Below, piece by piece: positions 41,892 to 44,534 of a stretch of DNA of 46,763 bases (positions are counted from its first letter, which is position 1; each line of letters begins with the position of its first letter). A model generated the notes under the pieces. It was not told where the DNA came from. It worked only from the letters and a program-made list of their open reading frames with translations, and searched no databases. A program made the translations under genes and the position numbers. The DNA comes from Nitrospirota bacterium (lineage in GTDB: Bacteria; Nitrospirota; Nitrospiria; Nitrospirales; Nitrospiraceae). The stretch lies in contig JAHRHE010000031.1 in assembly GCA_020027965.1 (NCBI GenBank), positions 1-46,763 on the forward strand. Direction: 5' to 3'.

Positions 41892-41913
41892 AGGGCGCTC
41901 GTTCTTGATGATC

Positions 41914-41974
41914 AGGTGATGGAGTTCACCTAAACCGCCCGGACCTTCGCGTCCTCGGCTGATAACTCCTACTG
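41914..41974 (+). promoter_or_regulatory. Fluoride riboswitch (crcB motif)
   Basis: The conserved blocks appear in order: GGTGATGGAGTTCACC, TAAACCGCC, a stem GGAC/GTCC, then GGCTGATAACTCCTACTG. P1 pairs GGTGA (41915-41919) with TCACC (41926-41930). The loop GGAGT (41921-41925) can pair with ACTCC (41965-41969) to form the ligand-organising pseudoknot. All the hallmark bases of the crcB RNA class are present. ACTCC is also the 5' arm of the terminator that follows, so fluoride binding should prevent termination and switch the gene on. Confidence 0.93.
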
Positions 41975-42004
41975 ACCTTCCCAGGTTCAGCGGGAGTTTT
42001 TTTT
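41964..42004 (+). terminator. Expression-platform terminator of the fluoride riboswitch
   Basis: AACTCC (41964-41969) pairs with GGAGTT (41993-41998), extended by CTGA/TCAG. Eight T residues follow (41997-42004). The 5' arm overlaps the aptamer pseudoknot. Confidence 0.88.
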
Positions 42005-42023
42005 GCCATCAGAGGAGGACGCG

Positions 42024-43172
42024 ATGATCGCATGGCCATCCGCTCGTTCGTGCTTCCGTCCAGCCGGCTTCAGAACTTCCCTGAGCATCCTTCTTTCGGT
42101 CCTCGTTCTATTCGTTGTCTCGACGGCAGCGCGGGGTGAGGACGGTCGGAAGGAAGACACGTCCTCGCCCTCGACACAAGCACGTTCCTGGTGGAATCCC
42201 CTGACCTGGAAGTGGACTCCTACGGAGGGGGAGATTCAGAACTATCGGCGCAGTTGGAATCCGATGGCGAATGGCCCCATCCTGCTGACCAGCGTCGACA
42301 TCTCTCCGAAAGGACAGTTCCTCTCGCAGTTCTTTGTCTTTGGAGAAACCGGTCACCTGAGCTTTGACAATAAGCTCACAACGCATCGTTCAGATTCGGC
42401 GACCCACCTCAATGCCATTGCTCCGTTTCTGCTTCTGGGTTATGGAATGACGGATAACTTCGAGATCAATGTCGCGCCCACCGCCATCTATTGGCAAGCG
42501 AATCAGACCACGAGCACCGGGGGCCGGATGCGCGAGGATGAGTTTGGTCTGGGAGACACGGCCATCTATCTGAAATACCGGCCCGTGGTGCAAGATCCTG
42601 ATTCGTGGCGGCCATCCGTGACCATCTATAATCAGATCAGTCTTCCAACCAGCGACTGGGCAGGGACTCGGCCGGTTCCGGGTGGGTTTTCACCCCTGGG
42701 GCGACTGCCTGCGACTCGCTTCGGCGCGCTCTCATTCACCGAAGGCATACTGTTTCGCAAGAACCTCCGTCCGTTTCGCCTGAGTGGAGGCATCTTTTAT
42801 ACGTATGACACACCCGGCAACAAGGACGGCATGAACACCTATGGGGGCGATATCGTCAATACCCGATTCATCATCGAACACATCCTCGACGATGATCGCG
42901 GGTTCGGCTACAACTTGGAATTTCTGACCCTCCATGTGGTTCCACATCGTCTGGACGGACATGACTTAAACCTCAAGCCGACCAGTTCGACAGTCTTCGG
43001 CATTGAACCGGCCATTCAATATAAATTCACTCGGAGCTCCTCTGGGTCGCAGCTCGTTGGTGCGGCAGGTGTGCAGTTCACAGTCGCCGGTCAAAACAAC
43101 CTCGCGGCCATCTATCCGAATATCTCCCTCTACTACTACTGGAGCAGCAAAGGGAAGGTCTTCATGCGATGA
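42024..43172 (+). CDS. Outer-membrane beta-barrel protein under fluoride control
   Basis: The 382-residue precursor has a signal peptide (hydrophobic core about 22-36, ending VVSTAARG). Alternating hydrophobic and polar strands with many aromatic residues follow (FLSQFFVFGETG, DNFEINVAPTAIYW, SLYYYWSSKG), typical of an outer-membrane barrel of the MetA/phenol-degradation transporter type. The ATG at 42024 has GAGGAGG upstream. Frames starting earlier begin within the terminator. The riboswitch lies only 50 bases upstream with no intervening gene, so this is its target. No CrcB/Fluc or CLC-F gene is seen nearby. The transported substance is unknown, and fluoride efflux support is inference. 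Confidence 0.82.
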   Translation: MIAWPSARSCFRPAGFRTSLSILLSVLVLFVVSTAARGEDGRKEDTSSPSTQARSWWNPLTWKWTPTEGEIQNYRRSWNPMANGPILLTSVDISPKGQFLSQFFVFGETGHLSFDNKLTTHRSDSATHLNAIAPFLLLGYGMTDNFEINVAPTAIYWQANQTTSTGGRMREDEFGLGDTAIYLKYRPVVQDPDSWRPSVTIYNQISLPTSDWAGTRPVPGGFSPLGRLPATRFGALSFTEGILFRKNLRPFRLSGGIFYTYDTPGNKDGMNTYGGDIVNTRFIIEHILDDDRGFGYNLEFLTLHVVPHRLDGHDLNLKPTSSTVFGIEPAIQYKFTRSSSGSQLVGAAGVQFTVAGQNNLAAIYPNISLYYYWSSKGKVFMR

Positions 43173-43442: not shown

Positions 43443-44534
43443 ATGACGGAGGATCGCCAGGCATCCTCGGCACCGGTGAATCGCGCGGAGGCGCAGCGTC
43501 GCGTCGATGAGATCCTGGCCTTCCGGGAAGAACTCCACCGGCTCGAACGGGAGGGCGTACTCGCTCTGCCCGAAGACCAACGGCAGCGGCTCACGTCGTA
43601 TCACGACGAGATCCTCGCCGTGCTGACCAGAGAGTTCGACGTCGACACGACCGTCACCGAGAAGCAGATGTCGTTGGGCATGCGCATCGTCTCGTTTCTG
43701 GGTGCCCTGGCGCTGGCCGCGAGCGTCTTCTTCTTTTTCTACCGGTTCTGGGGCGTGCTCTCCACGTCGCTCCAGGTTCTCATCCTCGCTGCGGCACCGC
43801 TCCTGGCAGTCGGCGCCATGGAGATCGCGGCGCGGAGGGAAAAGATATCCTACTTCACGACGCTGGCCGGGCTGATTGCCTTTGCGAGCTTTGTGCTCAA
43901 CCTCAGCCTGCTCGGCCACATCTTCAGTATCACCCCTTCCCAGAACGCCTTGCTCGTCTGGGGAGGGTTTGCTCTCGCGCTCGCCTATGGGTACGATCTG
44001 CACCTTCTGCTCGTGACCGGCATCCTCTGCCTCTTGGCGTATCTGTCCGCAACGACCGGTACGTGGCGCGGCCTGTACTGGCTGTCATTTGGCGAGCGAG
44101 CCGAAAATTTTATCCCGGCCGGCTTGCTCCTCTTCGCGGTGCCCGCGGTCCTCCCACATCGACGGTTTCCGGAGTTCCCGGGCTTCTACCGCGTGTTCGG
44201 ACTGCTGGCGGTGCTCCTGGCGATCCTGATCCTTTCCCACTGGGGTCGGGGCAGTTATCTTCCATGGCAACCAGACTCCGTGGAGACGGTGTATGTGATC
44301 CTGGGCTTCGTCGCCTCCGCACTCGTGATCTGGACGGGCATTCATTGGAGGTGGCAGGGCGTTACCAATCTGGGGAGCACGTTCTTTGTCGTTCAGCTCT
44401 ACACCAAGTTTTTTGATTGGTGGTGGGACTGGATGCCCAAGTACCTGTTCTTCCTCCTCCTCGGCCTCATCGCGGTGTTGCTGCTGCTGGTATTCCAGCG
44501 TCTTCGGGCGCACCTGAGGGAGGCGACGGCATGA
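43443..44534 (+). CDS. DUF2157-like multi-pass membrane protein
   Basis: The 363-residue protein has a soluble helical N-terminal part (about 1-80, rich in Arg/Glu) and about ten transmembrane segments from residue 83 to 355 (for example IVSFLGALALAASVFFFFYRF). DUF2157 membrane proteins have this layout with no known biochemical role. The start at 43443 is chosen because a -10 box overlaps the earlier ATG. The next gene overlaps the end by four bases (ATGA), so the two are coupled and probably form a complex. Confidence 0.75.
   Translation: MTEDRQASSAPVNRAEAQRRVDEILAFREELHRLEREGVLALPEDQRQRLTSYHDEILAVLTREFDVDTTVTEKQMSLGMRIVSFLGALALAASVFFFFYRFWGVLSTSLQVLILAAAPLLAVGAMEIAARREKISYFTTLAGLIAFASFVLNLSLLGHIFSITPSQNALLVWGGFALALAYGYDLHLLLVTGILCLLAYLSATTGTWRGLYWLSFGERAENFIPAGLLLFAVPAVLPHRRFPEFPGFYRVFGLLAVLLAILILSHWGRGSYLPWQPDSVETVYVILGFVASALVIWTGIHWRWQGVTNLGSTFFVVQLYTKFFDWWWDWMPKYLFFLLLGLIAVLLLLVFQRLRAHLREATA

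Follow-up and report, generated by a model that had tools for sequence, protein, structure and literature searches.

The riboswitch and the gene behind it

The stretch of DNA analysed here (the window) is 46,763 nucleotides long and makes up the entire contig C112 of a Nitrospirota genome of 3.6 Mb assembled in 263 contigs, with 97% completeness and 3.7% contamination. It contains a fluoride riboswitch, the leader of which runs straight into the Shine-Dalgarno sequence of a gene for a predicted outer-membrane beta-barrel protein. The features of this locus, in window coordinates, are as follows.

41906-41978, + strand: fluoride riboswitch aptamer (RF01734), from the Rfam covariance scan
41914-41931, + strand: P1 hairpin, AGGTGATGGAGTTCACCT, from the sequence and the Rfam alignment
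41921-41926, + strand: pseudoknot strand GGAGTT in the P1 hairpin loop
41947-41956, + strand: aptamer P3 segment, TCGCGTCCTC, perfect complement of 42015-42024
41964-41969, + strand: pseudoknot 3' strand AACTCC, also the 5' arm of the terminator
41964-42004, + strand: intrinsic terminator (stem 41964-41998), mutually exclusive with the pseudoknot
41997-42004, + strand: run of eight T, TTTTTTTT, following the terminator stem
42012-42018, + strand: Shine-Dalgarno sequence GAGGAGG, from the sequence
42024-43172, + strand: predicted outer-membrane beta-barrel gene with signal peptide (P0001), 382 aa by translation, ATG at 42024, stop codon included
43443-44534, + strand: DUF2157 membrane gene, downstream of the barrel gene

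The covariance scan (cmscan) scored the aptamer at 51.6 bits, against a gathering threshold of 34, with E-values of 1.6e-11 within the window and 2.9e-13 genome-wide. The other features expected of an RF01734 member, namely the GGAGU/ACUCC pseudoknot and an expression platform overlapping the aptamer, are also present. The match lies far above chance and confirms that the riboswitch is genuine. An earlier note, made from the sequence alone, had described a crcB-motif aptamer with a pseudoknot and had proposed the covariance search; the score and the presence of both pseudoknot strands bear it out. Its coordinates are correct, the Rfam match beginning 8 nt before them, as are the Shine-Dalgarno sequence, the T-run and the protein length. 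The overlapping terminator with eight T residues was likewise recovered, with a stem that uses the 3' strand of the pseudoknot and a folding energy of -16.3 kcal/mol (z -3.2).

In the fluoride (crcB) riboswitch class, ligand binding blocks the overlapping terminator in an ON-switch layout (PMC2864571), and the locus resembles the class as described there in its score above the cut-off, its pseudoknot and its overlapping terminator. By analogy with this established class, the RNA would bind fluoride and turn the gene on. The target, however, differs: the literature names fluoride exporters, Na+/H+ antiporters, pyrophosphatase, enolase, formate hydrogen lyase and mutS (PMC11139923, PMC2864571), whereas here the riboswitch precedes an outer-membrane barrel. 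The P3 segment can also pair perfectly over 10 nt with the Shine-Dalgarno and start region (42015-42024), a length equalled in 1 of 100 shuffles, and the minimum-energy fold contains this pairing; in this one sequence it may possibly provide a second, translational layer of control.

The genome-wide scan returned the aptamer of the window as the only RF01734 match in the source genome, and neither CRCB nor Voltage_CLC domains were detected in the genome or in the target (at 97% completeness, where an assembly gap is possible), in agreement with the earlier description of the barrel gene as the sole target. The absence of CrcB was first regarded as an odd feature, but CrcB was found in 68 of 175 genomes of the taxonomic family; since most family genomes are without it, its absence is unremarkable here. 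The antiporter type used by the riboswitches of relatives was not found in the source genome. The idea that this genome has no Na+/H+ antiporter at all was refuted by the presence of two PF00999 genes, neither of them beside the riboswitch.

The downstream DUF2157 gene belongs to a set of three closely related copies in the genome (83-85% identity), including one on contig C109 (G000:C109). It could be the main target, served by read-through with the barrel as a passenger, being on the same strand with no terminator found between the two genes. Yet about 190-270 nt lie between it and the barrel gene, and the two further genomic copies have no RF01734 match beside them. We hold this arrangement to be highly improbable.

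The barrel protein and its relatives

Searches of Pfam and NCBIfam matched no family directly to the 382-aa protein, and a PDB sequence search with the barrel profile gave weak OmpA matches only. An AlphaFold2 model, built from 54 family sequences drawn from the loci gathered in the analysis, predicts a 12-strand barrel (pLDDT 83, pTM 0.82), in which the N-terminal residues 1-22, the region compared with the barrel-plugging N-terminus of COG4313 channels, fall below pLDDT 50. The closest structure by VIA-align is the COG4313 channel 4rl8 (Z 24.1, rmsd 2.7 over 251 residues), followed by the amyloid secretion channel FapF, 5o65 (Z 23.2); Foldseek places FapF first, so that the two are nearly tied. 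The assignment as a 12-strand, COG4313/FapF-like outer-membrane barrel is thus well supported by prediction, and the fold prediction proposed in the earlier note agrees with its claim of a barrel.

Both likenesses are confined to the fold. The protein shares the 12-strand barrel with 4rl8 but is only 11% identical to it, and it does not reach the corresponding Pfam model (Phenol_MetA_deg, PF13557), which 4 of the 54 family members do reach, with a best E-value of 3.9e-6; moreover, its relatives adjoin ion transport genes and not genes of aromatic degradation. Identity to FapF is 13%, and the neighbourhoods examined contained no recognisable Fap genes. Below 150 mV the COG4313 channel Pput2725 passes hardly any ions, and its proposed role is the uptake of hydrophobic molecules (PMC4493636).

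The barrel family is common in the taxonomic family of the window (37 of 100 sampled genomes, other families included, had a match), and distant members occur in a second family of the phylum. Most named records containing relatives are Nitrospirae or Nitrospira assemblies; a Leptospirillum plasmid also carries one, in the gene order ArsR-MFS-barrel. Relatives recur in several types of neighbourhood, in which Pfam domains were tested. The first combines a PHO4/PiT permease, what we take to be an arsenite-methyltransferase-like gene, a radical SAM/DUF3641 gene and an ArsR regulator; the second, an ABC transporter presumed from its sequence to be of the molybdate type (SBP_bac_11, BPD, ABC with TOBE) and a PBP_like regulator; the third, Porin_O_P, a relative of the phosphate-selective porin; and the fourth, pumps that we likewise read as RND. 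These types cluster on the family tree (none of 200 shuffles gave as low a value), where the 382-aa protein groups with the permease/arsenic-linked members (support 85/93). The source genome encodes three paralogues: that on contig C57 adjoins a PiT permease, that on C100 adjoins a molybdate-type ABC transporter, and the window copy lies behind the riboswitch.

Such neighbourhoods raise the question of phosphate or oxyanion uptake alone, whereby the barrel would import protective phosphate and fluoride would never pass through it. The nearest relatives and one paralogue of the same genome adjoin a PHO4/PiT permease, other paralogues adjoin Porin_O_P, and phosphate importers and phosphate protection have been reported in fluoride tolerance (PMC11139923). 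The window copy, however, has no adjoining permease, while the permease operons also carry arsenic genes and their traffic may be arsenical; as a complete account, uptake alone appears somewhat unlikely.

Fluoride riboswitch targets in related genomes

The association was examined from both the barrel and the riboswitch side. RF01734 was absent at gathering level from all homologue loci scanned, and at E-values up to 1 none was found in eight loci of near relatives. Conversely, no relative of the barrel was found near 102 other riboswitch matches of the taxonomic family in the stretches covered, nor did the pairing appear among the matches listed for 396 genomes of the phylum. A conserved partnership of riboswitch and barrel is not supported at the loci covered, and the survey of homologues for upstream crcB RNAs proposed in the earlier note turned out negative. 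Since the homologues examined consistently lack the riboswitch, the pairing is either a lineage-specific recruitment or an accident; the identification of the riboswitch itself is untouched.

An accident would mean that rearrangement, deletion or misassembly placed an old riboswitch here and that its original target, such as the antiporter of relatives, was lost. The pairing is a single instance in a metagenome-type assembly, with 263 contigs and 3.7% contamination; the locus shares no synteny with relatives, whose riboswitches mostly control an antiporter or an ABC exporter. Against this, the aptamer, terminator, Shine-Dalgarno sequence and start codon are all intact, as at functional loci, with 46 nt from aptamer to ATG, and the gene is intact and full length with a signal peptide. 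We consider such an accident unlikely, but a serious rival reading.

For the 102 other riboswitch loci of the family, the nearest recognised targets were sorted as follows.

37 loci: PF00999-type antiporter
31 loci: ABC exporter
9 loci: small secreted protein c5
3 loci: CrcB
other loci: MFS, dynamin-like GTPase and others

An ABC exporter of about 565 aa directly follows the riboswitch at L084, L077 and about 31 other loci, and in most of these genomes no CrcB was detected. At L085, L087 and L091 the riboswitch precedes genes for a dynamin-like GTPase and for the small secreted protein c16.

A second outer-membrane protein was found among the riboswitch loci of two sister genera, g6 and g10, where ten loci have a downstream protein of about 510 aa (L094, 5112-6632, - strand; L120, 1788-3314, + strand; and eight more). 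In a second search these ten proved to be all the full-length copies found in the two genera, each of them behind a fluoride riboswitch; genus g18 holds two more copies, with no riboswitch listed in front of them. Two results suggest an outer-membrane porin remotely related to DcaP: by tblastn the protein hits a Polaromonas sequence that has its own match to PF19577, and a profile search reaches 6eus, the structure of DcaP (E 1.6e-8). A structure model of the protein had a pLDDT of 27 and was left out of the analysis. In G041 the riboswitch and terminator lie about 110 nt before the start of the gene. At most other loci the small secreted GGQAG-repeat protein c5 intervenes, and there the porin gene would be co-transcribed with the riboswitch. 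Like the barrel of the window, the DcaP-related protein is a putative outer-membrane protein that follows a fluoride riboswitch, but it is unrelated in sequence, is about 510 aa long and often has c5 in between. Judging from these ten loci, fluoride riboswitches have outer-membrane targets beyond the window too. They lend independent support to the idea of an outer-membrane target put forward in the earlier note.

A possible outer-membrane step in fluoride tolerance

The reading that we prefer, with a probability of about 0.5, is that the barrel is an outer-membrane channel of the kind that partners transporters, recruited into the fluoride regulon, where it alters small-solute traffic. Fluoride, as a Mg-fluoride complex, would stabilise the aptamer pseudoknot and keep AACTCC from the terminator, so that transcription would reach the barrel gene. 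The product would be a COG4313/FapF-like 12-strand channel; its family, in Nitrospirota, has paralogues that often adjoin inner-membrane transport systems, and one of them would have been recruited in this lineage as the outer-membrane part of the fluoride response. By changing solute passage across the outer membrane, it may allow the exit of fluoride or a fluoride complex, or the entry of protective phosphate; its channel activity, substrate and benefit are putative. It counts against this reading that fluoride can cross general porins and that HF crosses membranes.

Between fluoride exit and the entry of phosphate or another anion, phosphate is somewhat favoured, because the nearest relatives adjoin a phosphate permease and because phosphate import and ion transport both figure in fluoride tolerance according to a review (PMC11139923). 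The earlier note had proposed a pore through which exported fluoride leaves the periplasm. That the barrel gene is the only riboswitch target in the genome agrees with such a pore, as does the occurrence of a second, unrelated porin as a fluoride-riboswitch target in relatives; but no fluoride exporter of known type was found in the genome to feed it, COG4313, its relative in structure, conducts ions poorly at low voltage (PMC4493636), and traffic in phosphate, oxyanions or metalloids would suit the neighbourhoods no less well. We regard an exit pore as unlikely.

To our knowledge, the known fluoride response comprises the cytoplasm and the inner membrane. A literature search, falling short of the full target list of Baker et al. 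2012, found no papers linking fluoride riboswitches to outer-membrane channels. The present data point to an outer-membrane step in fluoride tolerance, unstudied so far. More broadly, and tentatively, at slightly less than even odds, Nitrospirota may have a dedicated step of this kind, in which unrelated channels (COG4313-like and DcaP-related) came independently under fluoride riboswitches and control periplasmic solute exchange. With two unrelated outer-membrane proteins under the fluoride switch, an outer-membrane contribution becomes directly testable, and fluoride offers a stimulus by which a function might be assigned to this uncharacterised barrel family, which otherwise accompanies phosphate, arsenic, molybdate-type and efflux transporters.

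Two observations concern this family itself. The operons at L168, L169 and L165, containing ArsR, the arsenite-methyltransferase-like gene, radical SAM/DUF3641, the PiT permease and a barrel paralogue, form a cluster for arsenic modification that includes an outer-membrane protein of its own. A record titled uncultured Nitrosospira sp. (CAADGK; L033 and L045) contains Nitrospirota-type relatives of the barrel and is probably a misnamed Nitrospira bin.
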